From the NCBI GenBank assembly GCA_020050435.1, contig JAGVKQ010000030.1:1-64000 (forward strand): a DNA stretch of 64,000 bases, given 5' to 3'. Below the pieces are notes generated by a model, which was not told the DNA's origin, did not search any database, and saw only the letters and a program-made list of their open reading frames with translations. Source of the stretch: Candidatus Caenarcanales bacterium. GTDB taxonomy: Bacteria > Cyanobacteriota > Vampirovibrionia > 2-02-FULL-35-15. The translations under genes were made by a program, and so were the position numbers. Shown here piece after piece: positions 12,135 through 54,240 of this stretch; the stretch's first letter is position 1, and every line of letters starts with the position of its first letter.

Positions 12135-12140
12135 TAGTTT

Positions 12141-12215
12141 CGGTAACCCAGCCAACCTTTTTAGGCTCTGTGGTTTTGCGCCCCACAATTACTTGTGGTT
12201 TGCCTTTGTCGTCTT
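12141..12215 (-). promoter_or_regulatory. Cyclic di-GMP-I (GEMM-I) riboswitch
   Basis: Read on the minus strand, the aptamer core is present in order. GACGACAAAGGCAAACC comes first, then a perfect 6-bp stem CCACAA / TTGTGG closed by a GTAA (GNRA) tetraloop, then GGGCGCAAAACC, and an AGCC / GGCT stem. It ends with GGGTTACCG, whose pairing with GGCAAACC closes the fold. These match the GEMM-I consensus (compare V. cholerae Vc2). The 3' strand ends six bases before the protease ATG, so translation control is the likeliest mode. Confidence 0.9.
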
Positions 12216-24046: not shown

Positions 24047-26890
24047 TTATATTACACCATACATTGCTCTCCAAAATATTTTTAATCTCATAGGGAAATC
24101 ATCAGCATTTGGTATAAGCATCTTAGCAGGTAAAGATTTCAGGTAACCTCTTTCAAAAGAATTAAAAGCAGCAAGTGTTGTTAATTCAAGATTCGGCATA
24201 AATCTAAGATCATCTGTGACCCTTCTCCCAACATCTTTAACTTGATCTCTAAAATTATCATACTCAGGAACCTCACCAGCTAATGCAATTAAAGTATTTC
24301 GATGAATTGCATCTGATATTCGACTTGAGATTTGAGTTATACTATCAGGAATTCTTTCACATACGGAAGGGAAAGGAGTAATTCCTTTTTTATCTTGAAC
24401 ATCTTTAAGCACAGTACTGTATACAACATGATTTAAAAGTAAAATTATAGCTCCAATATTTCTAGATTTATCTCGCCCCCTCGCTCTCATTCTTTCTGAT
24501 ACAGAAGAATCTGTTAAATCTGATATATTTTGCCTAATATCACCTTTCTTATCTAAAATAATTTGAATTACATCTTCTAAATCTTTTTTTGAAGCAGCTT
24601 TTAAATCAAAGTCACTCAATACTTCTTTTAGAATAGTTAGAAAATCTCTGATTTCCTGCTCACTTAAAACAAAAGACTCTCTTCTTTTTTCATTTACTAA
24701 TGTTTGAATTAGAAACGGGCTCTCTCTCCTTTCATCAAACAATTCAGAGGAAATTAAGGTATCAGCAACTTTTCTAATAACAGTAGAAGAAGGTTCATTT
24801 TCTAATAGTTCATTTAAGAGTGTATCCTTACAATCAAATCTTGGTAAAGCACCTGTTTTTCCCTTAAAAGCAGGCATTCCTCCATTGAATGGTTCTACAT
24901 TGAAAGCATATAATCTTCTTTTTATATAATCGACATCATTTAAATCATTAGATGTTTCTGCTACAATTTTCTTTTTTACTCTTTTCAACTCATCTTCTAA
25001 TATTTCTTGTTCAAGTTTTGTAAGCTTAGCTAAGGGTATGGTTACTGAGCCACCTTTTTCTTTTATTACAGCAACAATAGTAGCTTTTGTTACCTGTGAC
25101 CTGCTGCACGCTAAAGAAGGCAAAGGCTTATCAACAGGAATATCAAATAATAACCTGGTTAGATTTTCTGCATTTGTATTACAAGCTATTTTAAAACCAC
25201 CAGATAAGTGTTTAGATGTAAAAAATTCCAAAATATCATGATGGTATCTTTTTTCAATTACATTTTCCCACCAAGCATCAAATTCTCTATCAGTAAAAGT
25301 AAGTCTTAAATTTTTATTATCTATGCTTAAAGTTCCTAAACCAGGCTGAGCTTTAGTATGAGCTGCATGGAAATTATATAAAGCTGCTGTTCTAAAAAAT
25401 GCTTTATTATCCCACCTACGCTCTATAAGTGCTTCCCACGGTTTGATTTGAGATTCTCCAAACCCAAAAAGATAAGGATGTCTTCTACGTAATGCCTGGA
25501 CAGCATTCATACCAGAACCTCTTAGGCAATCATTAGCTAATCCATTATATTCGGCAGGAAGAGAATATTCATCTCTTAAGAAAAAAGATCTGGCTTCTTT
25601 TGTTTTAAACTTACCACTTCCATGATCATCAGCATCCACAGATTCAAAAAGTTCTGGGTTATTTATCCTCAAATTGTCAACCAATTCATCAGTTACACAA
25701 TCTATTGTTTTTCTATGCCCAGATTGTTCTGCCCACATTCCTCTATGTAAAATTATATGAGGTTGAATTAGTTTTATTAGATTTTCATCATTCAATCCTC
25801 TTACACCAAGTTTAACTGCTTTATAATTATTATTTGCTTCTTCGCATCCATTTAACATTCCCTTTAAACCATGAGATATCAAAACATCTCCCCAATTTCT
25901 TTTCCTAATTTCCTTTAAATTTAATTTTCCACTGCGAGGATTATAAAGTCTCTCCCCAAAAACCAATACCCAGGTACAAGCTCTTTGAGCATTCATTTCA
26001 CCATCTTCACCACTCCACTTAACACCTGGCAATAACCATGGCCTTATTTTAGGGTTTTTTCCCTGCATAGAATCAGGACATAAAATCTCTACAATTTTTT
26101 CAGGAGATTCACTTTCTAAAGCAGGTCTAAGTTTTCCATCTGCAACTTCCTTATGAAAACTTTCTACTGTTTCTATATTTCTTGCAGTAAGTAAATGTCT
26201 TTCATTAAAGAAGTAATATTTTAGTAATGTGGCTTCGCACTCTTCGATTTCATCTTTAATTTTACTAGGCAATGAATCCAGATATTTATCTGTATAATCA
26301 TAAGCAACAAGTGCTTTTAATTCATTATCTTCTAAATTACATTTAAATTTTCCTGTTTGAACTAAATACTCTAAAGTATTAGTGAATTTATTTATATGAA
26401 TTTTCCTAGAGTCACCAGGTATAAATCTGATACCATTTGTCTCTAAATATCTTATACCTTCCAGTTCTTGCAATTCAGCTAGTTTACTAGGCGCACGACC
26501 ACTTTCCTGTAACTCTCTTATTGTTTTTCCAAGTTTTACATCTTTATACTTAGCTTTTAAAGTGTCAATTCTTTCAATTCCTTGTCTTAGTAAAGTAGCT
26601 ATTTCATTAGCCCTTTTTGCTTTTCTTTCTCTTCTTCTGGTAGCAGTTCTATCTTCTAATCTATATTTTTCACGTGCTTCATTTGGAGGAAGTTTTTCAT
26701 CTAAAGGCTTTAAAAGTGCTGGAGAAGCACCCACTGAAAACAATCTAGCTCTTGCAGCCAAAGCACTATCATTACCATTCACTGCACCATTTCCAGCTGG
26801 AGAAGATGCCACTGTACTCATAGCAGGGGTTAGATTCCTATGAGATATTGAATCTACAACTCTTGCGATTTGTTTATCTACTACTTTCAT
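24047..26890 (-). CDS. Large paralogous protein, I(K/R)PW-module family, member 1
   Basis: I do not recognise the function of this 947-residue protein. Its parts match those of the six genes upstream. An N-terminal LPPNEAREKYRL ... KAKRANEIA segment (about 68-95) comes first. Modules follow near residues 282 (NPKIRPWLLPGVKWSGEDGE), 378 (degenerate) and 483 (QIKPWEALIERRW), with the NWGDVLISHGLKGML and ALRRRHPYLFGFGE wording between them. The GLGTL...FTDREFDAWW segment is near 520, and the helical C-terminal module includes VLSEQEIRDFLTIL and ends FWRAMYGVI. There is no signal peptide or membrane helix. It starts 3 bases after the stop of member 2, and ilvA follows after 7 bases. Confidence 0.8.
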   Translation of the reverse strand: MKVVDKQIARVVDSISHRNLTPAMSTVASSPAGNGAVNGNDSALAARARLFSVGASPALLKPLDEKLPPNEAREKYRLEDRTATRRRERKAKRANEIATLLRQGIERIDTLKAKYKDVKLGKTIRELQESGRAPSKLAELQELEGIRYLETNGIRFIPGDSRKIHINKFTNTLEYLVQTGKFKCNLEDNELKALVAYDYTDKYLDSLPSKIKDEIEECEATLLKYYFFNERHLLTARNIETVESFHKEVADGKLRPALESESPEKIVEILCPDSMQGKNPKIRPWLLPGVKWSGEDGEMNAQRACTWVLVFGERLYNPRSGKLNLKEIRKRNWGDVLISHGLKGMLNGCEEANNNYKAVKLGVRGLNDENLIKLIQPHIILHRGMWAEQSGHRKTIDCVTDELVDNLRINNPELFESVDADDHGSGKFKTKEARSFFLRDEYSLPAEYNGLANDCLRGSGMNAVQALRRRHPYLFGFGESQIKPWEALIERRWDNKAFFRTAALYNFHAAHTKAQPGLGTLSIDNKNLRLTFTDREFDAWWENVIEKRYHHDILEFFTSKHLSGGFKIACNTNAENLTRLLFDIPVDKPLPSLACSRSQVTKATIVAVIKEKGGSVTIPLAKLTKLEQEILEDELKRVKKKIVAETSNDLNDVDYIKRRLYAFNVEPFNGGMPAFKGKTGALPRFDCKDTLLNELLENEPSSTVIRKVADTLISSELFDERRESPFLIQTLVNEKRRESFVLSEQEIRDFLTILKEVLSDFDLKAASKKDLEDVIQIILDKKGDIRQNISDLTDSSVSERMRARGRDKSRNIGAIILLLNHVVYSTVLKDVQDKKGITPFPSVCERIPDSITQISSRISDAIHRNTLIALAGEVPEYDNFRDQVKDVGRRVTDDLRFMPNLELTTLAAFNSFERGYLKSLPAKMLIPNADDFPMRLKIFWRAMYGVI

Positions 26891-26893
26891 TAT

Positions 26894-29719
26894 TTAAGAT
26901 CCCATAGCATATCGCCAAAGAGCACTAACTCTGGATGAAAATTCTTTAGAGCCTACCGTCAAATAGTCCTCAGGAATTCCTTGTACAAATGGGTTTGAGA
27001 TATTTGATTTAGCTAGCTTTGCTACTACAATAGCTTCTAATCCATTAGGGATTTGCTGACTTTCTCTTAAAGCAAAAGCAAGATCTGTTTTAAAAGTTTC
27101 AGCTGTATATTGCACATCAGTAAACTTAACACTTTCATTAGTTTGGTTATCAAATTTTGTTTTAACAATTCTTGTTTTTAAATGCTGTAATTCTAACTGT
27201 TCTAAATCTGTACGCGAAGAGCTTTGTGCAATCTTACTAAATCTATCAATCGTATCGCCATAATCCATATTTTTATATTTTGCATAAATCTTTTCCCAGT
27301 TTCCCCTAATAACTTCTGCAGTTCTTTCTGCTTGCTCTTCTATTTCAGCAATCTTTTCAAATCTTATCCCACTATGCAAAAGTGAAGGAGAACCACTTCT
27401 CAGCTTATTATGCATACCTTTCATACAAGCCTGTGCAGCAAAATAGCTAAATGAGTGATCTAAAAGTTTTAACCTAGTCAAAGCTTCTGGAGCTTGCCCA
27501 TCAGATTTTATTTTTATCGCCTCAAGAAGAACATCTCTAGGGTTCTTTTGTGTAGCCAATACACTTTCTATGGTAATTCTTAAGTCATCCCTAAGAGCAT
27601 CATTAGCTTCTCCAGGAAAAAGATACTCTGAATTAGTTTTTATAATTTTCAAGATATCTCTTATATCATCATTACTTAAAATATAATTACTTGTTTCCGC
27701 ATTTTGTGCATTTAATATTTTTTCTAAATTAGAGCCTTCATTAGTGTCAGATGAAGAAACGACTAATGCATCCGTCAGTTTGTATAGAGTAAAGAGATTT
27801 TCTACACTACTAAATGGAGTTAATGCTGATAGTACACCAGGGCTATATTCTGTAGAGAATTGTTTTGAGTCATATGTAGAATCAACAGGTTTAGCAACTT
27901 CACTAGAAACTTCTTCTGAAGTAAACAGCTCCTGTTTAAAAGGATTATTTAATACTATTTCAAATTTGTTTTTCTTCATCTCGGAAATCATTTCTTTTCC
28001 AGTTAAGCCATTTGCCACTTTTTGCCCTAGTAAAAATTCTAAAGCAGTTTTAACATTGCTACCTAAATTACAATGAAACCAAGTTCCTGTATTTTTAACA
28101 AAGAAACTCTTTAATCCTTTCCCATTATTACCTTCTGGATCATCACACCACTTAACAAACTGTGCTTTTGTAAATCCAAAAATAGGGCTTGGACCAGAGA
28201 GATCAAGCTCTCCAAGTCCAGCATCATGTAGTTTTACTGCCATTTCCAATCTGGAAAGATCTTCTCCATATTTTCCAATTCTAATTCCAGCATGCGAAAT
28301 CTCCCAAATATGAAATTGGTTTGGTCGCAATCCAATTAAATCTGGATATTTATGAGACACTGCTTTTAATGAACCACGTCCCTTTAAAGCGTTACTAGCG
28401 ACCCTTTCATAATATCCAGCAAGACCAAAGACTTCAGATCTTTTCTCAACATCAATTTCTCCATCATATGAAAAGTTTCCAGCAATCACATGTTCTGAAA
28501 GCTGATCCAAGACCTCAAAGCCTTCCCAAGTACCATGATGTTTATAAGACCAGGGATTTACTCTATTATTTCCTATACCTACAAGATTAGGTTCAGCAAA
28601 TCTCAAGAAATTAACAAGTCCACCTAATTCAGGATGACGTTCAATTAATCCCCTTAATCCAGATTTTTTATTATAAACAAAGGGAGCAAATGCTCTATCC
28701 TTAATTTTATCAATTCTATATTCTCCCACTTCATTTACTGCATCTGCACCATATTTTAAAAACCATTTAGCAGCTCTCACTGCTAACAATTTTCTTAGCA
28801 AAAGTTCTTCATCATCACATTCTCCACTCCATTTAGCCATGTAATACATTGACCATTCTCTTACAATAGGATTTTCACCCTCTAAATATCCAGGGAATGA
28901 AATTTTACATAGCTCAGGTCGTTCAATTTGTAACAGACAATCCAAGCCAGCTTTTACTAAATCATCTACAGCCCCCTCATAGTTTTCTAATAATATGGGA
29001 GTATCTTTTTTCTTAATATTGATATAAAACAATCTACCAAGTGTTTTTAGTCTTTCCTCTAGGTGTGGGCTGTTTGCATTTAATAATCCATTAGGGAATT
29101 TAGACAGTAACCCTTTTTTATTAAAGGAATTGTTTTTTAGCGAAAAATATGCAGTAAGGGTAAACAATTCTTGATCACTATTTAAAGTTTCAGCATCACC
29201 CGTTTTTCTTACATTTGCATATGCTTTTTGTGCAATATCTTCAAATTTATCCATTTCAACATACTCAGGAGAAAGCCGTGCTTCTGTCCACATGAATTTT
29301 ACTTGTTCTGATATTGCTTTTGCTTTTTCAATTTTCTCTGTGTTAATTCCAGGAAGCTTAATTTCACTTCTAGGAACTTCATTCAGATTAGGTAAAGAAG
29401 CCCTATCATATTTAACTTCTAGTTTTTGTTTAGGATTTCCAAAACCTCTATTGATCCTAACAATACTTACACCAGACTCATCAAAAGGAATTGGTGTGTG
29501 GCATACAGTAGCTCCACCATTCCCTACATCTCTCCTAGGGATCAAACATTCAACTGTAGCACCAGGAGCAAATCCTAAAGTAGATGTAATTTTTTGTCTT
29601 GTGGGTTCAAGAACTCTTGGTAATGGATCTATTGGAGTGCTAACTTTAATTCCTGAAAGAAGCCTTTCTTTAGGCTTTATCCCAGTATCTACTGCTATAG
29701 GTAATATTGCTGTTGTCAT
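26894..29719 (-). CDS. Large paralogous protein, I(K/R)PW-module family, member 2
   Basis: The 941-residue protein carries the family layout. The N-terminal helix (ITNEKI-like GINTEKIEKAKAISEQVKFM) is followed by modules near 285 (NPIVREWSMYYMAKWSGE), 388 (RVNPWSYKHHGTWEG) and 470 (QFHIWEI). A clear GLGELDLSGPSPIFGFTKAQFVKW segment lies near 510-525, then LSNDDIRDILKII and NPRDVLLEAI of the C-terminal module. The tail FSSRVSALWRYAMGS is nearly identical to member 3. A TTAAGGAAAG ribosome-binding site precedes the ATG, 9 bases after the previous stop. No catalytic motif is seen and the function is unknown. Confidence 0.8.
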   Translation of the reverse strand: MTTAILPIAVDTGIKPKERLLSGIKVSTPIDPLPRVLEPTRQKITSTLGFAPGATVECLIPRRDVGNGGATVCHTPIPFDESGVSIVRINRGFGNPKQKLEVKYDRASLPNLNEVPRSEIKLPGINTEKIEKAKAISEQVKFMWTEARLSPEYVEMDKFEDIAQKAYANVRKTGDAETLNSDQELFTLTAYFSLKNNSFNKKGLLSKFPNGLLNANSPHLEERLKTLGRLFYINIKKKDTPILLENYEGAVDDLVKAGLDCLLQIERPELCKISFPGYLEGENPIVREWSMYYMAKWSGECDDEELLLRKLLAVRAAKWFLKYGADAVNEVGEYRIDKIKDRAFAPFVYNKKSGLRGLIERHPELGGLVNFLRFAEPNLVGIGNNRVNPWSYKHHGTWEGFEVLDQLSEHVIAGNFSYDGEIDVEKRSEVFGLAGYYERVASNALKGRGSLKAVSHKYPDLIGLRPNQFHIWEISHAGIRIGKYGEDLSRLEMAVKLHDAGLGELDLSGPSPIFGFTKAQFVKWCDDPEGNNGKGLKSFFVKNTGTWFHCNLGSNVKTALEFLLGQKVANGLTGKEMISEMKKNKFEIVLNNPFKQELFTSEEVSSEVAKPVDSTYDSKQFSTEYSPGVLSALTPFSSVENLFTLYKLTDALVVSSSDTNEGSNLEKILNAQNAETSNYILSNDDIRDILKIIKTNSEYLFPGEANDALRDDLRITIESVLATQKNPRDVLLEAIKIKSDGQAPEALTRLKLLDHSFSYFAAQACMKGMHNKLRSGSPSLLHSGIRFEKIAEIEEQAERTAEVIRGNWEKIYAKYKNMDYGDTIDRFSKIAQSSSRTDLEQLELQHLKTRIVKTKFDNQTNESVKFTDVQYTAETFKTDLAFALRESQQIPNGLEAIVVAKLAKSNISNPFVQGIPEDYLTVGSKEFSSRVSALWRYAMGS

Positions 29720-29728
29720 TTTCTTTCC

Positions 29729-32700
29729 TTAAGAACCCACGGCAAATCGCCAAAGAGCACTAACTCTTAATGCAAATTTATCGTTATTTGGATTTATTAA
29801 ACCCTCTGGAAGCAATGTAATGTTTTTACCATCTTCCATACTTTTCCCCAAAGCAATCATTGCAACTTCTTCACTCACTACTAATCCACATTTTTTCCTG
29901 ATATATTCAACATCTCTTTCAAATAAACTACCTCTCATAAATGTTTTTTCTATAGCTTTATTAGATGCTTTTTCATTAAACCGCTCATTAAATCTTGCTT
30001 TTATAAGCCTTTCAATATGGGATCTAAGCAATCTTTCATCATCTATCATTTCTACACCACGATAAAATTCAGATTTTATTTTTCCAGGGCTAGCAAACAT
30101 AGTTAATACATGAGTGGTTTCAAAGTATGCTTCTTCCCCACTTGAATAAGATTTTCTAAATGGATGATATATACCACTCCAATGTTTTTCTAATTCTACC
30201 GTTAAACGATCTGCTCTTTGAGTTATATCTCCACTAGGACTTTCTATAGAACTATGAACTCTTTTTCTTTTTGCAGCTTTATCTTCAATAGTTCTAATAG
30301 CAGCATTTCCAATTATGTACTTTATGAAAGTATCTAAGATTTGTACGCTATCTGTGTTTTCTGGTAATTTGCCTTTTGATGAAACTTCATATGCTGCAAG
30401 TAAAATATTTCTAACATCATCTTTTCCCCTAGCCAAGGGATTAAGTGCAGCTGAAAGTGCTACTTTAGCTGGCTCTTTTAATTCAATCTTATCAAAATCA
30501 TCAATATTTTTTTCAACTATTCCTAAAAGTTTTCTTATATCATCATCACATAAAGCATGTCCACCCCCACCTGGCAACTTAGCAAGTAATAAACTTTCTA
30601 GAGATGAGTTTGATGGATTTTGAGAACCAATTACAAATGCATCTACCACTCTAGAAATTAATTCCACATTCCCTGGTTTAAAAACAGAAGGGAGTAAAAC
30701 ATCGTCATTATCATTTTGCATCCTACAAGCAGGTAATTCTTTTCTTTCACAAGGAGCTTTAATTACAGTAACTAAAGCTTGTGCTTTTTCGGCAGCTGCT
30801 TCTCTAGCTCTAGTTACTTCTTCTTCTCTTCTTTTTGCTAACACTAAAGCTCTTCGAAGAGCTTCTGTAGCAGTTTTTGCATCTCTGGACACTTCACTAA
30901 GTACATCTGTAATAAGTCCTTTAGCTTCATCTGCAGCACCTTGAGAATTTGTTCTAATTTGAGTTATTCTTTCTTTTCCAGTTCTTGCTTCTTCTAGAGT
31001 CTGTTTATTAGAAACCTCTGTCTTTGCAGCATCAGCATTATCAGCAACTTCTTGAAGCTTGTTACGGATCTCATCTTTTGCAGCATCAACTCCATCTACA
31101 GGTTTTTCCAAAGGTCCTAACTCTCTGGAACTTAAAATAACAGCTTTAACATCTGCTTCAGCAGTATCAATAATGGTATTAGAACTTTCAGCAACTGTTC
31201 TAGCGCCTCCTACAGCAGCTTCCATAATACTATTAGCAGCATCTTTAGCAGCATTAATTTTCACTTCTTGTGTAGTGATTTTTCCTTCCTGAATATCAAG
31301 TTCACTTAAAACTCTTCCTAACTCAACATCTATATTTTTATTAGGCTGTTCTACTATTTTTTTAGCATTTGCTTCAGCCTCAGAAACTTCTTTTATTGCA
31401 GCTTCAATTTCAGTTACCGGAACATCATATCCTCTGGAAGTTACACTCAATGCAGTTGCAATTTTATCTTTATTAGAACCAATTCCTTGAAGAGCAGTAT
31501 CTTTTATAGGGGTGATTTTGCCTGGTGCCTCAGTAGCTATTTCTTCAACTTTAGCTTTCACACTACTAATTACTGCCGAAGCAGGTTCTTTTATTTTTTT
31601 AGGATTAGCTTTTGCTCTTTCAATGCTTTTTAAAGCAATATTAGATTTACTAATAGCACTTTCTTTTGCTCTCCTAATTTTTCCTATTGCTATTTTTTTA
31701 GCTCTTTCTTCTTGTACTTCTGCTCCAACATCTGCTGGTTTTAAAGATGTTTTTAAACTTTGTCGAGCAGAAGCAACCTGTTCAGAGATTTCACAAAGTG
31801 CAGTGTTAATAGCATTTTTAGCCTCATCTGCAGAGCTTTGAACACTAGTTACAGCTTGTGTTATTTCTCCTTTTACAGCTTCAGCCTGTTGAAGAACACC
31901 ATCTCTAGAAATCTCTTCACTTACAGCACTCAATTCTTCACTAGCAACATCAGGAATACCTCTAACTTTTGCTTCTTCTCTAGCGATTCTTCCTGTTTGA
32001 GCACTTGCTTCACTTCTAACTTCTCTTGCTTTTCTATCTATATTTCTTATAGCTTCTCTAGCTTTCTCTTTAGCACTTCTTTCAGCTTCATTAATTTTTC
32101 CCCTAACGATTCCAGCTTCTTGCATAGGCATTTGTACAGCACTTGTGATGTTATCTTTGCCCTCTGCAATTGCGTTATAAGTTGTTTCTTTTAGAGAAAC
32201 AATTTCATTTAATTCACGATCAGACAATACTTTAATATTGTTTTGTGCAAAATTAATTACTGCCAAAGCATTATCTTTTATTTCTTTAGGATCAGGCTTT
32301 GGCTTTTCAATTCTTACGGGAGCAACTCTAGGTTCTCTAATTCTTTGCTCTCTTCGTGGTCTAGGTTCTCTTCGTTGTCCAAACTCTCTTTGCAGTCCAG
32401 ATTCTCCTAGTAGTCCAAGTTCTCCTAGCAGTCCAGGGGTTTTTCCTGGTTTAGGTAATTTTACTCTAGGTTCCCTTTGTACTCTTACTCTAGGCTCTCT
32501 TGGGATTTTTACTCTAGGCTCTTTTGGTGGTCTTGGTTTTCTGACCTTAGGAGCTCTATTTTCCTTAGCTTCAATTCTACCGACTCTTAAAGTATTACTT
32601 GATTTTCCAAATCTTGCTGTTGTACTAACAACTATTGATTTCCCAGCAGCATTGACTTTCCCCGAATTGCCTAACATAAATTCTTCTAGTGGAACATCAG

Positions 32701-34081: not shown

Positions 34082-34249
34082 TAATTTAAACTTTTCTTAA
34101 ATGCTTTTAATTTGCTGTAGATTTTAATCATTTTACAAGGTTAATAAGCAGTGAAAGTTAAAATCGTATTTCAATTTTGTCTAGTTAAAATTTCTCTAAT
34201 AATACTAATATTCTTCTATTAAAAAATGTCTTTTTTTACTACTTAAAAC

Positions 34250-36205
34250 TTACACGTCTCTATATAACGCTTGAAGAAATGGTGATGCTTGTAATCTTGC
34301 TCTCCATTCCTCTACACTTCTTTCAAGTTCTAGATCTTCCTGTCTTTCCTCTTCTTGTATGCGTCTTTCTAATGCTTCAAGTCTTTCTTGACTCATAATT
34401 GCAAGTAAAAAACCATCTACTTCATCAGGAGGAACAACAGGAAACGCAGTACAATCATCATAAGCACTTACAGGATCAAATATGACTTGAAGCGTTCCTC
34501 CATTTTCTTCAAAAAGTTTTGTTATCAATTGTCTTTGGAATTTTTTTTCTACATTACCAAAATCAGGATTCATATCAAAAAGCTTTCTATATGCCAATGC
34601 AACATTTCGCCCACATACATCTTTAAACCCAGGAAATCTAATTTTATTTTCAATAATATATTTAATAGGATCTTGAGAGTTTCTTTCCATCCACTCTTCA
34701 AATTCTCTTTGGGTAACTGTATAAATCCCTGGAGTTTCATGAGTATCTAATTTACCAATTTCTAAAGTGCTTAAAATATAAGCAAAATACTCTCTGAATA
34801 ATCTTTCTCCGTCATTACCTTCCCACATATTTCCAAAACTTATATCTCCTGGATGGATTTGATCACTTTTCCAACCAAATCGCTCAGGATATTTATGAAC
34901 TAAGGCTTCATAAGCATTTCTGAAGTTAGATTTTTCAAAAATTCTTTTATCTACTTCACTAAATCTTGTTGACCATCTAGTTTCATTTAAGATTCCTGCA
35001 TTAGTAATTTCTCCATCAGCATCAGAACAATTAGCTCTAACAAGTTCGCTTGTGATCATATCCATATCTTCATTTGAGATTCTTTCATGTTCTTCACCTA
35101 TTTTCAAACTTAACTCAGCAATTTTTGATCCTTTAAATTCTGGTAATCCTAATAAAATTATCTGCCTGACACTTCTTCTAGGAGTAATTGTCAGAAGTCC
35201 TTCAAGTGGATTTCGTTTATCTCCTAACACCGCTTCCCAACCACCATGCCTACTAATATGCTTAATAGCATCTACATCTATTCTCTCATTCGCATCAATT
35301 ACACCTGCTACAAATTTTAAAGTATATCGAACTGCTCTGCTTGCAAGTTCTTCACCTTCATGATTTTGCCACATATCTTTGCCTCTAATTAACCAGGGTC
35401 TTATAAACGGATAATCCCCATCTGTAAGCTCAGCGAATGTATTGCTAATCAAGGCAGGAGCACTATTATCACTCTGATGAATTAATATAGGCAAATAATA
35501 TGCCTGCAAACTATCTGCTAAACCTACAATTCCTTCTATGTCTTTTGCTGTTTTATATCCTTTTAAATCTATAAAATAATGTTTTGCTAAAATCCTTAAT
35601 TTGGTTTCTTTATCTTGATCAAAAAAATTATCAGGAAATTTTTCAAAGCCTAAGAATTGGTCTGTTCTTTCACTTTCATCATGAACCCGGAGGCTGTAAT
35701 AAGCACATAGAGCAGTTATTTCATTATCTATATCCAAATCAGATATCCCATTTTTTAGAGCTACCAATTTTAAGAATTTAATAAACCTGTCAGATGATGT
35801 TCTTTGCATGCCAGGCTCAAACACTGGTACTTTACGATTTCTTACACGAGCGTCATGCAATCCGTTTGCTTCCTCTTTAATCATAGAAACAAGTTCTTTT
35901 GCGATTTGCAGTTTTATGTTTCGTGTTTTAGTTTCTTCACTTGATTCAAGAAGTAAGCTTTCTCTGAGATCAGACACAAAAGCACCGCTTGTTTGAGTCG
36001 CTAGACTTACTGCTGCCCCCTCAAAAGCAAAAGTATTAGAAACTGAATCTGAGTCAACAGGTGAAGAAGCGAATTCCTTTATAGAAGCTACAACAGTTGC
36101 ATGATTAGCTTTTGGAATTGAATTAGCAGCACAAGCATCACTGAGACGAGGTGGCAAAGTACCTAGTTTAGCCCGTAATCGAGTTATAGAATTTGATCCT
36201 GTCAT
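34250..36205 (-). CDS. Paralogous protein, I(K/R)PW-module family, member 4 (short)
   Basis: The 651-residue member has the helical N-terminal segment (ETKTRNIKLQIAKELVSMI), YPFIRPWLIRGKDMWQNHEGE near 268, a degenerate middle module near 365, and ALVHKYPERFGWKSDQIHPG near 440-450 followed by GNMWEGNDGERLF. TPGIYTVTQREFEEWMERN completes the core. It then ends early with a charged Glu/Arg coiled stretch, lacking the long C-terminal module of the other members. On the minus strand TGCTAGGAT lies 13 bases before the ATG, a possible promoter with a very short leader. Unknown function. Confidence 0.78.
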   Translation of the reverse strand: MTGSNSITRLRAKLGTLPPRLSDACAANSIPKANHATVVASIKEFASSPVDSDSVSNTFAFEGAAVSLATQTSGAFVSDLRESLLLESSEETKTRNIKLQIAKELVSMIKEEANGLHDARVRNRKVPVFEPGMQRTSSDRFIKFLKLVALKNGISDLDIDNEITALCAYYSLRVHDESERTDQFLGFEKFPDNFFDQDKETKLRILAKHYFIDLKGYKTAKDIEGIVGLADSLQAYYLPILIHQSDNSAPALISNTFAELTDGDYPFIRPWLIRGKDMWQNHEGEELASRAVRYTLKFVAGVIDANERIDVDAIKHISRHGGWEAVLGDKRNPLEGLLTITPRRSVRQIILLGLPEFKGSKIAELSLKIGEEHERISNEDMDMITSELVRANCSDADGEITNAGILNETRWSTRFSEVDKRIFEKSNFRNAYEALVHKYPERFGWKSDQIHPGDISFGNMWEGNDGERLFREYFAYILSTLEIGKLDTHETPGIYTVTQREFEEWMERNSQDPIKYIIENKIRFPGFKDVCGRNVALAYRKLFDMNPDFGNVEKKFQRQLITKLFEENGGTLQVIFDPVSAYDDCTAFPVVPPDEVDGFLLAIMSQERLEALERRIQEEERQEDLELERSVEEWRARLQASPFLQALYRDV

Positions 36206-36287
36206 TTAAATTAGGTTTATCCTAGCATAAAGTTTAAAGACATTTCTAGAATGTTAATAAAAGTTTAGAGGTTATTAAAAAAATTAA

Positions 36288-38714
36288 TCAATAATCTGCC
36301 TCTGGTGTTTTTTCAACTCCTAGAGGGGCGACTAGTGTATATTGGTTTTTACGTCCGGCAGAAAGCTGTTTCATTTTATCTAAAACATCTTTCATACTTT
36401 TTTCATTTAAAACTAAATATTTTCTCAATTTCTCAAAGTCATCACTATTAGTTTCATAATTTCTAATAATTTCTTCACTTACACCTGCTTCAATGCAACT
36501 ATGTTTAAATACAGCAACACTGTATCCAAATACATCACTATCAAAATTGACTTTTATAGATCTTAGCCACCTTAGCATTCTAAGTCCAGCAACTGGGCTG
36601 GTTTTAATAGTTTCCCGAACTGGGGAAACTTGTCTTTGAACATAATCAGTAGGATAATTCAAAATTGGTCTATCTACCGCTGCAATTGGTTTTGTTCCCA
36701 TTTGAACTTCTGAATTAGGTTCTACTTTTACTTCTGCAATTGATTCTATAACTGTTTTCGTCTCTATAATTGTTTCTGGAACTGGATCTAGAATTGGCTC
36801 AGGGACCACTTCTGCATTGGGTTTTATTCCCACATTAGCCAATTCAATTGAATAGCTCCCTCCATTTCTGGATAGCAATTCTAGAAACGATCTATTAACA
36901 CTTTCTGTTTCCAGATTTTCTGCAGCTTCAATTTTAAAAAGTAACTTAATAGCTACACCTAATTTGTTTTGTGCAATTTTTTCAAAACCTCCTGAAATGG
37001 AAACAGCTCCATGATCAAGTATTGTTCTTAGGGATTTTTGTTGACTTCTAAAATTGGTTTCATATGCACGTTCAAATGAATCCTTATCTATAGTTACCAC
37101 TGTAGATAAAGGAGTTGAAACAATTCTAGCCAAACCTGCTTTAGCCAAATTATATGCAAACCCTTTTCTAAACAATTCAACTCCTTCCTTCTCGTCCCAC
37201 TTCCCTTCCCAACTAAATTGTTGAGGCTTTATTTGATCATCGTTATAACCAAATGAATTAGGACAAACTCTTTGAAGAGCTTCATGTGCTTTAACTCCAG
37301 AACGAAGTTGACAGCCTGGTGCTACGAGATCATACATCCTTGCCCAGTTCACTTCCTTAGCAATTTCTGGGTTGAGATTACCATCTGCATTTAAGACTTT
37401 AATCCCCTCATCAGGTAATCGATGCTCGACAATATAATTAGTAACATTATCAATTAAAAGTTTTCCATCAGATCCCTGATCTTTCCACATGTGCTTAGTT
37501 CTTATTTGCCAAGGTTTTATATTATGTTCTTCAAGCCCAATTAAATCCGGTGCTGCAAGCTTTAAGGCATCTCTAACATTTTTTGTATGAGGACAACAAG
37601 CATACATGCTTTTCAATCCATATTCGTCTTTTGAGAAAACCTCTCCCCAATTAGTATCTTTTATGGTTTCTAAATTATAAGACCCGTCTTCATTTACAAC
37701 TTTTTCTCCATATTTAAGAACCCATTGAACAGCTTTTCTTGCAGTGTTTTTTCCTTCTTCCCCACCCCACTTAGCTGTAGTGCTTTGTAATACCCAATCT
37801 CTTACAATAGGGTTTGATCCTTCAAAAAAACCTTTCCGGCATACCATCCTATAAAGATCAGTCAGCTCAAACGCTCTAACAATAGATCTGAGTCCAAGCT
37901 TATCTAATTCGGGATATACACCTTTTGATTTTTCTAAATCTGCAGGACTTTGAATTCCTTTCAAATCAAAGAAATAATGCTTCATTAATAGCTCAGAAAT
38001 AGCCAGGAAATTATCGTCATTAGCATTGTATAAACCAGGATGTATTTTATCTAAAAAGCCGTTTTGTTTTTTTAATAATTCATCATGATCAGTTATCATA
38101 GAGTAAAAACCAGTAAGTGCAATTAGCCCCTCATCTGTATCAGCACCATCAAAATTTCTATCTGATCCAGCGATCTGTTTAATTATTTGTCTAAATTTTG
38201 TTCTACCAATAATTTTAGTATCTTTATTTACCTCTAAGTGAGTAAACTCGTCCTTATTTTTTCCCTCTTCAATTCTTCTAGCTAATTTTTTTGCTAAAGC
38301 TACTGTATTAAGTCTGCTTTCAGTAGTTTTTTTTGACTCTAGTCGAATTGACTCTTTTGGAAGTTTTTGTACTTTCTCAATAAATTTTGGATTGTATTCA
38401 ACTAGTAAAGTTTTTGTGGAATCACCAGCTTTATATTTAATTTCATAATTTCCAGTAAGCTTTGCAACTTCCTGATGAATAACTTTTTTTGGTTCAGATA
38501 CTTCTCTTAAAATAGCAGCAGTCATTTCTACTGGCAGAACCAATTGAACAGGAGGACTTCCCCTTCTTGAATTAAACTGACTTCTAGAACCAAATAGATC
38601 AGAAGAAGCATTATCATCAGGAAAAATGACTTCATGAGGTGGTGATTCTTGGCAAAGAGGTTGAAGTCTTAACCAATGTCTTGGAAACAATGCTCTTTTT
38701 GTTAAAATAGACAT
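36288..38714 (-). CDS. Large paralogous protein, I(K/R)PW-module family, member 5
   Basis: I place the start at 38714 (MSILTKRALFPRHW), which has GGAG 10 bases upstream. The alternative ATG at 38738 has no such site. The 808-residue product shows the clearest triple repeat: NPIVRDW...AKWGGEEGK near 300, NIKPWQIRTKHMW near 398, QIKPQQFSWEGKWDEKEGV near 494, a spacing of about 98 residues. Each is followed by A..A..W+LK..E..V, an NW.....GL block, and ALK...P. The FTRxxF segment is degenerate here (VVTIDKDSFERAYE). A Pro/Val/Glu-rich linker (PEPILDPVPETIIETK) precedes a short C-terminal helical domain. Unknown function. Confidence 0.8.
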   Translation of the reverse strand: MSILTKRALFPRHWLRLQPLCQESPPHEVIFPDDNASSDLFGSRSQFNSRRGSPPVQLVLPVEMTAAILREVSEPKKVIHQEVAKLTGNYEIKYKAGDSTKTLLVEYNPKFIEKVQKLPKESIRLESKKTTESRLNTVALAKKLARRIEEGKNKDEFTHLEVNKDTKIIGRTKFRQIIKQIAGSDRNFDGADTDEGLIALTGFYSMITDHDELLKKQNGFLDKIHPGLYNANDDNFLAISELLMKHYFFDLKGIQSPADLEKSKGVYPELDKLGLRSIVRAFELTDLYRMVCRKGFFEGSNPIVRDWVLQSTTAKWGGEEGKNTARKAVQWVLKYGEKVVNEDGSYNLETIKDTNWGEVFSKDEYGLKSMYACCPHTKNVRDALKLAAPDLIGLEEHNIKPWQIRTKHMWKDQGSDGKLLIDNVTNYIVEHRLPDEGIKVLNADGNLNPEIAKEVNWARMYDLVAPGCQLRSGVKAHEALQRVCPNSFGYNDDQIKPQQFSWEGKWDEKEGVELFRKGFAYNLAKAGLARIVSTPLSTVVTIDKDSFERAYETNFRSQQKSLRTILDHGAVSISGGFEKIAQNKLGVAIKLLFKIEAAENLETESVNRSFLELLSRNGGSYSIELANVGIKPNAEVVPEPILDPVPETIIETKTVIESIAEVKVEPNSEVQMGTKPIAAVDRPILNYPTDYVQRQVSPVRETIKTSPVAGLRMLRWLRSIKVNFDSDVFGYSVAVFKHSCIEAGVSEEIIRNYETNSDDFEKLRKYLVLNEKSMKDVLDKMKQLSAGRKNQYTLVAPLGVEKTPEADY

Positions 38715-38764
38715 TTTAAATTGGCTCCATAATAACACAAAGACAATAAGAATTAAATGTGTTT

Positions 38765-41752
38765 TTATCCATTAGGAAACCCCTCAGGAAGCCTTTGTAA
38801 AATACCTCTTGGATTACCATCAGATCTTATGTTTTTCTTAACAGCTTCTATAATTTGATTTTGACTTGGTTCTAGTCCCAAATCTCCACATATCTGATTA
38901 GCATATAAACACAATTCATCAAATGCCATATTTTCAAACCTAGCCATTTGAATACCTGCTCTTTTAGCTGCGCATAATCTTTCAAGGGATATAGAAACAA
39001 GCATAGCTTTCCTGGCTTCTTTTGCATTATTAGCATAGTGATAGTCTATGGCTTCACAATCTTTTTGAAGGGAAAAGCTTTCTAAACTCTCTACAGTCTG
39101 TGAATCATATCTGGTACGAACTATAACATCAGCAATCATTGAATGTGCAATAAAGTTAACTAAACCAGAAGAAAATCCATTATTTAAATTTAAAATGGTT
39201 CTTTTTGTTTGATTCTTAAACATAGTAGGATCAAACCCTGAGGGGAAATCTGCCGGTTTTGTATAGAATCTATCCTCCAATAAATCTAAACTCAACCTAA
39301 AAGAATCTTCAAGCAAGCGCATACTGTTATATCGTTCTCCATTAGGGACTCTTCCAACTCTTTCTAAAACCATTCTTGGATTTATTTCAGGATCTAATAA
39401 TAAATCTAAATGTCTTGCAAACCTTACTCTTGCAGGTAAAGTTAGAGTTGTAAGAGGTATCAATTCTCTTATAGAAATAACCACTTCTCTTAAATTATCA
39501 CCAGAAACCAAATAACCTCTTGCATCTTTCATAGAAGTCATATCTCGCAAAGAATATTTATCAATTGTAGACAGACGACGCCAAGAGTCTTCTCTTGTCT
39601 CTAATACTTCTATAGCAGTATTTTTATTAGGATCAGGAATTTTCAAGTTCTCTGCTTTTTCTAAAAATGGATTTGCATACAAATGGCAGATCTTTCCTCT
39701 GACAGCTTTAGCTTTTAAAGAAAATCGTTGTTCTTCAGATATCATTTTTCCACCAGTAAAAGAAAAACATACAGATCTAACTTCTGGTAATAGATTTAAA
39801 AGCAATCCCTTAGATAAAACCTTTGGTCCTTTCTTTATTTGTAGTGGTTCTCCATTTCCAAATAAAGTCTTATAAGCATCAAGCGTTTTATCAAAGGCTT
39901 TATACAGTCTTTGCTGCGTAGCATCAGAAACCAATTCAGCAGTAATAAAACCTCTATCTGATGTATTTTCATCCACCCATCTGACTAATTGATCCCTGGA
40001 AAGTGTATAGATTGGCAGGGTTTTACTTCTATCCAGAATCCCTAGCCCGCACTTTGCAAAATCAATAACAAGTGATTCAATAGCAAACTGCCTTCCATTT
40101 TCACTGTCAAGATTTTCAACGGGTCTAGCACTTGAAATTCTTACTGTATCTTCAAAGCTCGCAGGCAAATAAGAATGTCTTCTCCTTAATGCACCTATAT
40201 GAGTAGTCCCTGACTGTTCACAACATGATAAAACAACACTATTATATTCACTATTCCAGTTAACTTGACCTGCTTTTTCATTTAACTTGCCTTGAGTAAA
40301 AATATCGGGATTTCGTGTTTTTAAATCCTCTACGATATAGTCTGTTATTAAATCTATCATTAACATTCCATGACTAATTTCATCCTGCCACATTCTTTGT
40401 CTTTGAAAATCCCACTCATGCAATTGATCTTTTCCTTGTCCTACTAAAGGCTGTTCACTTCTTACCACTCTTCTATCCTGAAGAGTTTTATAACCAAGTT
40501 CTACTACTTTTCTTACACCACCACACTTTTCTATTACTCTTTGCATTTTATGCTCTTCTAAAGCAGCTTTCCATGAAATTTTTCTAGCTTCTTCAGATTT
40601 AAACTTCCCATCAGCATCTACCAAACCTAAGCCATATTGAAGACACCAGGCAGATGAATTTCTTTTCACTTCTTCTTGATCAATTTTTACAATTCCAGGG
40701 ATCGAACATTCCTCAGAAGTTCCATCAGTTTTAGCTGCTTCATTTCCAAACAACAGAACATCCATTTCCCACATCCTTAGAGGAGGATTTTCACCATGAA
40801 AAAGTGAAACAATTTCACCATTATTTAATTGCACGGGGAAACCATCACTAATTCCCTGAACTATACCAAGTCTAGTAACCTGATCTAATCCCAAATTTTT
40901 TAATTTACTTTTCCACCCTGAAAACTGTTCTATAGCTAAGATATTGTTTTTTTTAAGTAAGTCTACAAAGAGGTGTTCATATAAAGTTTTAATTCTTACT
41001 TCATACCCCTCATCTCTACTTACAATCATTTTTGGTAAAAGTTTACAAACACCATCTGGATTTTTAGAATTTTTTGTAAGAAAGCATGCGACTAAAGTAG
41101 CAAACTCTTCATCCCCCATATATTCAGGAGTAATTCTTTTTACGATTTCTCTCACCTTAGAAAACTCTAAAGAATCAACACTAGGCATTAAGTGATCTTT
41201 TTGATAGGCTCTTTTATCAGTAATATCAATAGCATCAAACATATCTAATGCTTCTTGTAGCCTGGCTTTGTATTCTTCACCTTCAATACGGCTTAAAGAG
41301 AATGCTTCTTGTGCACTAGTACATATTTCAAAAGCTCTTCTTCCTAAAACTTCATTTTCTTCATTTCCATACTTTTCACTTAGTGCCTTATCTCTTTCTA
41401 GCTCTATTTTGAGAGCATCTCTTACTTCTTTTGCTTTTTCCACTTTAAAATTTCTAGTTTTAGTGTCGGTAACTATATGGATTTTTTTTCTGGCTTCATT
41501 TTGATCAATACCATTTTTTATTACGGGATATCTTCTTATGACTGCTTTATCTCTCGCTTCAAACACATCTGCGACGAATGGTGAAGTTACACACGAAGCA
41601 GCTAATCCATCAGTTTGTACTATTCCCGAAACATCATTTACTAAAGCTTGTCTTAGTTGTGGCTGCAACTCTCTTTTAACAAGATAAAATCTGGTAAATT
41701 TTGTAGGCAAAATAAGTCCAGGTTTTATAACATCACTATTCAAGACACACAT
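38765..41752 (-). CDS. Large paralogous protein, I(K/R)PW-module family, member 6
   Basis: The 995-residue product is most like member 7, its immediate upstream neighbour. Both have EARKKIHI...KVEKAKEV, an inserted coiled segment, EFATLVACFLTKNSKNPDGV, and the C-terminal NPRMVLERVG, YNSMRLLEDSFR wording. Modules: NPPLRMWEMDV near 324, QLHEWDFQRQRMW near 444, and a degenerate third near 537. The GLGILDRSKTLPIYTLSRDQLVRWV segment is well kept. The start codon overlaps the end of member 7 by 13 bases, so translation is probably coupled and the pair probably arose by tandem duplication. Unknown function. Confidence 0.8.
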   Translation of the reverse strand: MCVLNSDVIKPGLILPTKFTRFYLVKRELQPQLRQALVNDVSGIVQTDGLAASCVTSPFVADVFEARDKAVIRRYPVIKNGIDQNEARKKIHIVTDTKTRNFKVEKAKEVRDALKIELERDKALSEKYGNEENEVLGRRAFEICTSAQEAFSLSRIEGEEYKARLQEALDMFDAIDITDKRAYQKDHLMPSVDSLEFSKVREIVKRITPEYMGDEEFATLVACFLTKNSKNPDGVCKLLPKMIVSRDEGYEVRIKTLYEHLFVDLLKKNNILAIEQFSGWKSKLKNLGLDQVTRLGIVQGISDGFPVQLNNGEIVSLFHGENPPLRMWEMDVLLFGNEAAKTDGTSEECSIPGIVKIDQEEVKRNSSAWCLQYGLGLVDADGKFKSEEARKISWKAALEEHKMQRVIEKCGGVRKVVELGYKTLQDRRVVRSEQPLVGQGKDQLHEWDFQRQRMWQDEISHGMLMIDLITDYIVEDLKTRNPDIFTQGKLNEKAGQVNWNSEYNSVVLSCCEQSGTTHIGALRRRHSYLPASFEDTVRISSARPVENLDSENGRQFAIESLVIDFAKCGLGILDRSKTLPIYTLSRDQLVRWVDENTSDRGFITAELVSDATQQRLYKAFDKTLDAYKTLFGNGEPLQIKKGPKVLSKGLLLNLLPEVRSVCFSFTGGKMISEEQRFSLKAKAVRGKICHLYANPFLEKAENLKIPDPNKNTAIEVLETREDSWRRLSTIDKYSLRDMTSMKDARGYLVSGDNLREVVISIRELIPLTTLTLPARVRFARHLDLLLDPEINPRMVLERVGRVPNGERYNSMRLLEDSFRLSLDLLEDRFYTKPADFPSGFDPTMFKNQTKRTILNLNNGFSSGLVNFIAHSMIADVIVRTRYDSQTVESLESFSLQKDCEAIDYHYANNAKEARKAMLVSISLERLCAAKRAGIQMARFENMAFDELCLYANQICGDLGLEPSQNQIIEAVKKNIRSDGNPRGILQRLPEGFPNG

Positions 41753-44694
41753 CCATTCAGCAAAGCCAATTCTGGAAATGCAGCAGACAGTGGATCTTTA
41801 AATCTATCTTTAAGATAAGTTAGCCCGTTTACTTCTAAAAGTTCATCAACTTGAGTTTTTTTAACCTTACTTAAATAAGTAGAAGAAGAGGCATCATCAT
41901 ATAAAAAGACATAACGCATCAACTCTCCCAAAACAACATCTGGTGCAGATTTCAAGCCATTCAAAGAAATGGACTTATTTTTTAAAAATGAAAATAAAGC
42001 TATTCCTTTCACTTCATGATTTAGAGAAAAAACATCTCTCTTAGCTATTTCTTTTACGGCTTCATCAAAATCATAATAAGTAGCTTTTTCTAGTCCGCTC
42101 TCAAATAGCGGTTTTGCTGATAGCTCTCTAACAATTTCTAAAGCTCGACTACAATCTTCTAAGTTGTTTCCTGCTATCCCTGAAAGCAAACCAACCCTTC
42201 CCTGCTGAGAATAAGGACCAAGTAGAGGATTACCAGCAACCACTGCAAATCTAAAAAGCTCATCCATTAGTCTAAGTGAATTATATTTGCAGTTTCTACT
42301 TACAGTACTGTGTACTTTCGATTCATAAAGTTTAGTTAGCATATATCTTGGATCAGGAGATAATGCAACAACATCTTCCAAATGTCTTAAGAATCTATCA
42401 TCCATAGCATCTTTCAAATCCACACATGCAGCAAATCGCCCAAGAGCTATCATTAGGTTTTTTAATTCCTGAGTAGTAAGAACATAATCTCTACCACTTT
42501 TAGCTTCCATCAATCTTTTAAGTGAAAAATCTTCTGCATGATTATATCCTGCTTGTAGAAATCTTTTTTCTGAAGTTGCAAATACCCTACCTTCATTTTT
42601 AAAGAATTCTTGAGCCAGAGTTCCTTCTATATCAAACCTATTCGAATCAACTAACAAAGAACCAGAACTTAGAAGATGAAATCTGCCATTCTTATAAGGA
42701 GAATCATTGGGCTGTACTAATAATTTTGCTTTTTGTTCAAGTACTGCTTCTTGTTTAGTAATCTCATCACTATTAAAGACCAAGACATATCTATCACCTC
42801 TCATCAAAGCAGGGAAAAATCCTTTTCCTTTTGCTCTAAGAACTTCTGGAACAGTTTCATTATTATAATCCCATCCAAAGAAATCTAAAAAAGTATTTCT
42901 TCTATTTTTTCCATGAGAATTAGATGCCATTTGTGACTCTATATCTTGAAATATATTTTCCACCACTACTCTTTGTTTTGGGTCATAGATTCGATCACAC
43001 CAAGCATTTAACTGATCTCTAGTAAAACTATAGACTGCTGGTTCCTGAGATCGATCAATTTCACCTAAGCCTGCATTTGCAAAACGCTCTGCTATTAACT
43101 CTCTTAGATACTGTTTACCACCTGGAGTAGCAAATTTTCCATGATGTTTTGCATCCACTAAATGTCCTGCACCAGCCTCAAATAAATAAGGATATTTTCT
43201 ATTAAGTGCATTTTCTACGGTAAGACTTGAGGCTGTCAAGCATGAAGGAGCAACTTCATCATAATAATCTCTCCAGTTTATACCTTGATACGTTTTTAAT
43301 CTATCACCATCAAACAGTTTAGGTATTTCATTTTTCAACCTAACTTCTACAATATATTCAGTTACTAAATCTATAAGGTGTTCTTCTTTTCCTCTAACTT
43401 TTAAAGGCTTTGTCCATTTGCATTGTTGATCTAGCTCCCATGGTTTTATTTGATCATCATCCAAGCCTATTAAAACTTTTTTAGCACTTCTAGTTCTTAC
43501 TAATTCCTCTGAGCCTACCTGAAGAAAACTTATCGTTCCCCCTTCTTCTCTAATTGTCATATCCATATTTGAAGCTATAAGAAGTTTGCTCCATTTCGCA
43601 TTTCTTACTTTATCTAAGTCCCATATGCCATTTTCATTAACAACTTTTTCAACATGCTTTAGAAGCCATGCTGATTGTTGAGCATTAGTGTGATCTAACG
43701 TGTCATGAGTTTTTGACAGTCCTTCTTTCCAGTCTCTTATTACAGGATCTTCACCGCTTAGCCAGGATACTTTTTCACCATTTTCAGCCATTCCAAAAAA
43801 TGCTCTTCTTAGCAATGGCTTTAAACCAACTTCTCTAATTTTATAAAATCCTATTCTACTAACTTCATCCCATATGCTGGCTTCTTCTAAATCTTTAATA
43901 TTCTCTTTTTTATAGATATCCACAAAAATATGTTCTAATACTGTTCTTGCTTTTATGGGGTCTACTTCTTCAGCATCAACTGAATCTTTTCTAGTATTTG
44001 CAATTGTCTCTGTAGGCAATGCACTAAATACGCCTCTGGGATTTTTAGGGGATTTTATCAAGAAACAACAAACCAATGTAACAAACTCAGTATCATGACT
44101 TAAAGAGGGCTCTAAAGCATTAACAGCAGCTTGAACATTTTCAAAAGTAACAAATTGAACTCCAGGGTTTAAGTGCGAATCTCTATATGTTTTTGATTTA
44201 AATTCTACAGCTCTCAACATATCTAAAAGCTCTGCTTTTTTCTCTTGATACTTAGCTGTTCTTTTGCTCTGACCTTCCGTAGAATCAAATTCTTGAATTA
44301 GTTTTTTAGCCAAAGGTCTTAAGTCTTCAGGATGTCTCTTTATAATCTTAGTAGCAAACTTATAATCACTAGCGAGTTTTTTCGCAACTTCTTTTGCTTT
44401 TTTTACTTTCCATTTTCTTTCATCTTTTCTTTCTTTTGGAATAAGAGGAATTGATTGTCTTGCTTCGTCTGGAGGCAAATTATTAGAAATTTCGGGAGGA
44501 TTTTCTAACTGAATATCCCTTAACAGTAAAGAATAAATAGGATGATGATTTGTACTTATCCAGGGTATTTCTTTTTTTTGTCTTGGAATAAGGGCCTTAC
44601 GTATAGATTGCATTTTCTTTGTTTCAAGAACGGGGGTAGTTCCTCGTGCAAATCCAGGCTTACTTATATGTGGTTTTCCTATGATAGTAGACAT
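41740..44694 (-). CDS. Large paralogous protein, I(K/R)PW-module family, member 7
   Basis: The 984-residue product opens the family block. It has LPPDEARQSIPL with WKVKKAKEVAKKLA (about 73-110), EFVTLVCCFLIKSPKNPRGV, DPVIRDWKEGL near 316, QIKPWELDQQCKW near 415, a worn third module near 513, then GLGEIDRSQEPAVYSFTRDQLNAWC. The C-terminal module includes YVLTTQELKNLMIAL, DPRYMLTKLYES and YNSLRLMDELFRF, matching member 6. No signal peptide, transmembrane helix or known catalytic motif is visible. The 111 bases before it hold no clear promoter. Unknown function. Confidence 0.8.
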   Translation of the reverse strand: MSTIIGKPHISKPGFARGTTPVLETKKMQSIRKALIPRQKKEIPWISTNHHPIYSLLLRDIQLENPPEISNNLPPDEARQSIPLIPKERKDERKWKVKKAKEVAKKLASDYKFATKIIKRHPEDLRPLAKKLIQEFDSTEGQSKRTAKYQEKKAELLDMLRAVEFKSKTYRDSHLNPGVQFVTFENVQAAVNALEPSLSHDTEFVTLVCCFLIKSPKNPRGVFSALPTETIANTRKDSVDAEEVDPIKARTVLEHIFVDIYKKENIKDLEEASIWDEVSRIGFYKIREVGLKPLLRRAFFGMAENGEKVSWLSGEDPVIRDWKEGLSKTHDTLDHTNAQQSAWLLKHVEKVVNENGIWDLDKVRNAKWSKLLIASNMDMTIREEGGTISFLQVGSEELVRTRSAKKVLIGLDDDQIKPWELDQQCKWTKPLKVRGKEEHLIDLVTEYIVEVRLKNEIPKLFDGDRLKTYQGINWRDYYDEVAPSCLTASSLTVENALNRKYPYLFEAGAGHLVDAKHHGKFATPGGKQYLRELIAERFANAGLGEIDRSQEPAVYSFTRDQLNAWCDRIYDPKQRVVVENIFQDIESQMASNSHGKNRRNTFLDFFGWDYNNETVPEVLRAKGKGFFPALMRGDRYVLVFNSDEITKQEAVLEQKAKLLVQPNDSPYKNGRFHLLSSGSLLVDSNRFDIEGTLAQEFFKNEGRVFATSEKRFLQAGYNHAEDFSLKRLMEAKSGRDYVLTTQELKNLMIALGRFAACVDLKDAMDDRFLRHLEDVVALSPDPRYMLTKLYESKVHSTVSRNCKYNSLRLMDELFRFAVVAGNPLLGPYSQQGRVGLLSGIAGNNLEDCSRALEIVRELSAKPLFESGLEKATYYDFDEAVKEIAKRDVFSLNHEVKGIALFSFLKNKSISLNGLKSAPDVVLGELMRYVFLYDDASSSTYLSKVKKTQVDELLEVNGLTYLKDRFKDPLSAAFPELALLNGCVS

Positions 44695-51285: not shown

Positions 51286-54235
<2,950 letters not shown>

Positions 54236-54240
54236 TTTCT

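Follow-up and report, generated by a model that had tools for sequence, protein, structure and literature searches.

The window analysed here, a 64,000-nucleotide stretch of DNA from a groundwater Candidatus Melainabacterium, harbours giant cytoplasmic proteins, expanded in a lineage-specific manner, that are formed around a three-unit helical repeat domain. This domain almost certainly shares a common ancestor with DUF4046 (PF13255), a Pfam family of Bacillales. Judged from sequence profiles, the repeat family can thus be attached to a family that is named but uncharacterised; what is new is the giant size, the multi-domain layout, the occurrence in another phylum and a fusion to a sigma factor, rather than the kind of family. 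A relative of the window proteins carries a complete sigma-70 factor, and we tentatively predict that the seven proteins are transcription-associated regulators or scaffolds.

Organisation of the gene block and its repeat domain

Seven consecutive minus-strand ORFs, with no internal stop codons on inspection of the window, span positions 24047–44694 and encode proteins of 651–1450 residues. All seven were found as described in a first-pass annotation made from the sequence alone. They are named W1 (41740–44694) to W7 (24047–26890) in the order of transcription. Their packing is operon-like, with intergenic distances of −13 nt (W1-W2, an overlap), 26 nt (W2-W3), 82 nt (W3-W4), 168 nt (W4-W5), 9 nt (W5-W6) and 3 nt (W6-W7). 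Downstream, a threonine-dehydratase-like gene (23032–24039, minus strand) lies 7 nt from W7 and overlaps at its other end with panE, a ketopantoate-reductase-like gene (22122–23045, minus strand). The opposite side of the locus is bordered by a queA-like gene (47833–49002, minus strand) and a glycosyltransferase gene (48923–49972, plus strand). These four flanking genes were recognised by sequence and by synteny in relatives, where they are conserved. The gene immediately upstream of the block (44806–47730, minus strand; 974 aa) does not belong to the repeat family; its long N-terminus includes a twin-arginine-like motif, RRGFLRTSAAG.

Repeat units were located with an HMM that was seeded from a single W3 module and refined iteratively on 16 family proteins. 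Full units are present in each of the seven genes (i-E-values of 1e-34 to 5e-13), scoring 40–110 bits in the window, while the top score among 960 shuffled sequences was 6.8 bits. The modules proposed in the first-pass annotation are therefore a real repeat that aligns above background. Each unit is about 97 residues long, and most of the genes contain one or two full units followed by a truncated last one. When the unit profile is compared to that of the domain, approximately 0.6 + 1 + 1 + 0.4 units are seen, in the order partial, two full and last partial. The three modules originally counted are thus correct as a sum of about three units, but they consist of two full units with a partial one on either side, and W5 has fewer. 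A "GLG.LD...FTR.QF..W" segment, previously listed as a separate element, does exist, but represents the altered end of the final unit.

W1 (984 aa) has units at 43441–43749 and 43168–43449 and a C-terminal domain at 42235–42633, and is nearest to W2. The corresponding features of W2 (38765–41752, 995 aa), which overlaps W1 by 13 nt, are found at 40418–40789 and 40166–40423, with the C-terminal domain at 39278–39619. The clearest units (37512–37814 and 37224–37520) are those of W3 (36288–38738, 816 aa), which starts with GTG and has an additional part-unit at 37119–37232. W4 (34250–36205), the shortest protein with 651 residues, contains units at 35123–35410 and 34850–35098 and a part-unit at 34673–34858. 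W5 (29729–34081, 1450 aa) retains about one full unit (33074–33364) and one partial unit (32843–33055), together with a C-terminal domain (30278–30667); an insert of about 650 residues (approximately residues 445–1100) is K/R/P-rich at first, with a net charge of +13 in 50 residues, and then Ala-rich and helical. In W6 (26894–29719, 941 aa), two units (28553–28873 and 28310–28561) are followed by a worn part-unit (28142–28309) and a C-terminal domain (27404–27805). W7 (947 aa) is arranged similarly, with units at 25793–26056 and 25439–25768, a worn part-unit at 25247–25447 and a C-terminal domain at 24389–24835.

The separate C-terminal domain, which had been noted as an "LSxxDIR...NPR" module common to the block, is therefore a feature of five of the seven proteins (W1, W2, W5, W6 and W7) and was not found in W3 or W4. 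In the 11 genomes from the GTDB family of the window genome, it occurs only in proteins of the repeat family. The EAR helix assigned to all seven is literally present only in W1, W2 and W7. The N-termini of family proteins are long and of low complexity, as in further giant orphan proteins encoded by these genomes, and most members have a repeat domain of roughly neutral net charge. In agreement with the earlier description, the repeat is regular and W/PW-rich, and no signal peptide, membrane span or enzyme domain was recognised in the family proteins scanned.

The predicted structure of the W3 repeat region (pLDDT 80.9, pTM 0.71) is nearly all helical. Each unit is modelled as a long helix, a short bridge loop and several short helices. 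This repeated all-helical architecture is reminiscent of solenoids such as PUF-like Nop9/Puf6, HEAT and TPR proteins. However, the best Foldseek match in the PDB had an E-value of only 0.22, with TM-scores by query length of 0.08–0.18, and no significant match in fold or sequence connects the family to PUF, HEAT or TPR solenoids. The fold search proposed in the first-pass annotation has thus returned no significant match to a known, characterised fold. The predicted repeat fold also had no significant match to DNA- or RNA-binding folds, or to viral models (BFVD). Repeats that read a nucleic-acid code, like those of PUF or TALE proteins, were rejected in view of the nearly fixed number of about three units and the lack of significant fold matches. 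Weak BFVD matches also brought homing-endonuclease repeats into consideration.

Relationship to DUF4046

No significant match to the family was obtained in Pfam, NCBIfam, PHROGs, PADLOC or PDB sequences. The first-pass annotation, which could not match the repeat to a named family, was right as far as curated models at threshold are concerned, but profile-profile comparison does link it to DUF4046. The connection appeared in a tblastn search of plasmids with the repeat domain of the relative from genome nzgw193, where nine of ten sub-threshold matches, covering one unit, were in Priestia plasmids. Two of the matched Priestia proteins were scanned, and Pfam assigns both to DUF4046.

A DUF4046 profile was built from an alignment of eight proteins from five genera. 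In hhalign, the domain profile (A1) matches this profile with a probability of 96.7% (E = 4.6e-10, score 78.5) over 181 co-linear columns, which pass through two units in register and include the RFPNYFF-like opening. A wider alignment (A4) gives 96.8% (E = 2.6e-10), and the unit alone 94.3% (E = 1.1e-7). As controls, 100 column-permuted profiles scored at most 21.5, the reversed profile 15.3, a sigma profile 17.1 and MlaD 13.7. The family and DUF4046 HMMs also each score proteins of the other side above shuffled sequences. A chance or low-complexity resemblance of the units is virtually excluded, being refuted by the shuffled and permuted controls.

Both groups have tandem units of about 80–100 residues in which shared landmarks follow one another in an identical order, xPWxh...W-(D/G)-GEEG...A-h-YhhEEKL...F...GL-G...P/SP..h...YP..F.PW, at an identity of approximately 20–30%. 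They differ in that the units here are longer (∼97 aa) and contain an inserted "V-x-(D/N)-x-x-G" loop. DUF4046 proteins are about 250–315 residues long, whereas the repeat domain of the present family is embedded in proteins of 650–1450 residues with extra N- and C-terminal parts. Since none of the members and units scanned is matched by the curated PF13255 model up to an E-value of 1, the family is best regarded as a distant sister of DUF4046 and not as a member of it. The orphan family thereby gains a relative, and DUF4046 gains a far larger range, extending to giant multi-domain proteins and to another phylum. No mention of DUF4046 was found in the papers searched.

Distribution and age

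Of the 11 genomes of this GTDB family, 8 carry members of the repeat family, usually at an equivalent locus, which answers the earlier proposal to look for the block in related genomes. Relatives were named with the neighbouring mlaD-like gene as bait, and are groundwater Candidatus Melainabacteria MAGs (nzgw190–193, SSGW_16, RIFCSPHIGHO2_02_FULL_34_12 and others). Outside this GTDB family, no member was detected in sampled genomes of the class (289 searched) or the phylum (386 searched). A combined profile of DUF4046 and the modules matched only the same repeat family in the 386 phylum genomes, and the Pfam DUF4046 model gave no match above its cut-off in 146 genomes of the phylum. A viral origin was considered and rejected, as three viral_contigs scans and a phage tblastn search returned no match; the family likewise has no match to phage or defence families in PHROGs, PADLOC, or phage or viral contigs.

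In relatives, the member usually lies between queA/glycosyltransferase and panE/mlaD. RIFCSPHIGHO2_02_FULL_34_12 has this place but no member, and in another genome (G006) a different giant orphan gene occupies it, indicating that the queA-panE interval is a variable island. A second giant orphan family, whose members are 40–47% identical, is also found in the island of relatives (L127:10917–13568, L022:11553–14183 and L021:18014–19774), beside the repeat family or in its place.

The seven paralogues share mostly 20–28% identity over hundreds of residues in BLAST alignments, in accordance with the old age ascribed to the family. The closest pair is W1 and W2, the two upstream genes (26% identity over 792 residues; tree support 99/96), and not the sixth and seventh members, which had been taken for the youngest pair. 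Since even W1 and W2 are merely 26% identical, duplication is old and not, as had been thought, still ongoing. W7 groups with member a of nzgw192 (97/93), while other placements in the family tree are weak. Considered with the pairing of W1 and W2, this grouping indicates that several paralogues probably predate the genus. An eighth paralogue of 745 residues is encoded on another contig of the same genome (G000, contig C8, approximately 149.3–151.5 kb).

Putative function

The clues to function come from relatives. In one relative (genome G001, L021:8937–12017), a single open frame of 1026 residues encodes the repeat domain followed by a complete sigma-70 factor, with regions 1.2, 2, 3 and 4 all above Pfam cut-offs; this fusion was seen in one MAG only. 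In genome G010, the family gene has a sigma-70 gene a short way upstream; a single small ORF on the opposite strand separates the two. In a tree of 48 sigma factors, the G001 and G010 sigmas sit on long branches and belong to none of the four groups recurring in the family genomes. The window proteins differ from sigma-70 (primary/group 2) proteins: W1–W7 contain no sigma-70 region 2 or 4 by Pfam, no sigma gene lies at the block in the window genome, and neither the module nor the C-terminal domain is homologous to sigma-70. The C-terminal domain did reach 11.7 bits against a G2 sigma in an HMM comparison, but a sigma homology was rejected, with a probability of 0.3% in profile-profile comparison. 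A sigma gene is also found near members in G002 and G003. G006, which lacks a member, has the same sigma at the corresponding position, so this proximity is ancestral and says little; we did not accept it as independent support. In genome G008, two adjacent sigma-70 ORFs (L128:8063–9619) are present on a contig without a repeat gene, and one of them is 58% identical to the fused sigma of G001.

DUF4046 genes are mostly carried on Priestia plasmids. In each of the eight Priestia plasmid loci viewed, and in the single Alicyclobacillus locus viewed, they are next to spore-germination (ger) genes (L131, L132, L134 and L138–L143). As the Priestia loci are related plasmids, these are not nine independent cases. 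Three of the eight loci first aligned, from Paenibacillus, Aneurinibacillus and Pontibacillus, have no ger genes beside DUF4046. The position next to ger genes would be typical of a dedicated regulator. A short stand-alone protein beside a ger operon is, however, a trait of DUF4046 that is not shared by W1–W7, which are 651–1450 residues long and have no ger genes nearby. One Paenibacillus copy has a helix-turn-helix-like end, whose best Pfam match (CENP-B_N, E = 0.065) is below the cut-off. The consulted portion of the Priestia gerU operon paper does not mention the neighbouring DUF4046 gene (PMC4661057).

The sigma fusion in G001, the sigma neighbour in G010 and the ger adjacency, each a thin clue, together point to a transcription-associated domain, and the first two indirectly favour a role in transcription for the window proteins. 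The K/R/P-rich stretch of W5 and the failure to recognise a signal peptide, membrane span or enzyme domain also count in its favour. The repeat domain may hold a partner, as the first-pass annotation proposed, either promoter DNA or a sigma factor/RNA polymerase; each paralogue could receive its own input or partner through its variable N-terminal tail and its C-terminal domain. Against this stand the restriction of the fusion to one MAG, the lack of a sigma gene at the block in the window genome, the C-terminal domain's lack of homology to sigma, the near-neutral repeat, the lack of a significant match to a nucleic-acid-binding fold and the three DUF4046 loci without ger genes. Almost as likely, the proteins are general protein-protein scaffolds in lineage-specific assembly or signalling, whose repeat would bind proteins and not DNA or RNA polymerase, with the sigma fusion being incidental at a hotspot of giant orphans and accessory sigmas. 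The near-neutral repeat domain and its unspecific, solenoid-like fold matches would suit such scaffolds, as would the presence of unrelated giant proteins in the queA-panE interval (L127, L022 and L021) and of the sigma at mlaD without members. However, general scaffolding predicts neither a fused complete sigma factor nor the pairing of DUF4046 with ger operons.

A link to second messengers or pili is suggested by relatives outside the window. The model of the C-terminal half of the nzgw193 member is of limited quality (pLDDT 70, pTM 0.43), but for its last α/β part, each of the first 16 Foldseek matches is a PilB/PilF/MshE N-terminal domain or a model of the pilus machine, with probabilities of up to 1.00 and E-values of 0.5–2. 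The C-terminal domain of four long relatives is predicted to share the fold of the PilB/MshE N-terminal domain. The resemblance to GSPII_E_N/MshEN of PilB, PilF and MshE concerns the predicted fold of the C-terminal ∼90 residues; no ATPase part accompanies it. The Pfam MshEN model found no match at E = 0.001 in six genomes, including the four that carry the long relatives, and none in the A7 members. In a scaffold of this kind, the GSPII_E_N-like C-terminus would act as a sensor, of c-di-GMP or of a PilZ-type partner, and the signal would be relayed by the repeat, with the window copies lacking the domain. We consider this unlikely given the weak E-values, the low pTM and the absence of the domain from all seven window proteins. 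Even less probable is that the family is exported or effector-like, with disordered N-terminal tails and no classical signal. The long, low-complexity N-termini would be compatible with export, but no signal or secretion domain was found, the genes are packed in an operon-like manner with metabolic genes, and a relative is fused to an intracellular sigma factor.

Returning to the transcription-associated reading, a broader and decidedly speculative extension is that DUF4046-type repeats are an unrecognised class of sigma-factor- or promoter-binding domains. These would control spore-germination operons in Bacillales and would have given rise, in non-photosynthetic cyanobacteria, to giant, fast-diverging transcription regulators, one of which would have turned into a sigma factor that is self-contained and brings its own domain for targeting. 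The sigma-70 fusion partner makes the function of DUF4046 testable, and Priestia, where it is paired with the ger operon, would allow this question to be addressed in a culturable system. Should the proteins indeed be regulators, the repeat would represent a new domain in bacterial transcription control.

Several other features of the window were observed. A c-di-GMP-I-GGC riboswitch (12138–12213, minus strand; 60.5 bits, cut-off 59) is found where a subtilisin-like protease ORF (10878–12188) begins. The listed TTG start of this ORF overlaps the riboswitch, so that the true start is probably further in. A complete 23S rRNA gene (51286–54237, plus strand) is apparently unlinked, as no tRNA and no other rRNA was matched in the window. 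A giant ORF at 59281–63999 encodes at least 1573 residues and runs past the end of the window; a later stretch resembles the open ORF with which the next 20 kb of this contig starts (L028:3–1379), with 25% identity over 243 residues.
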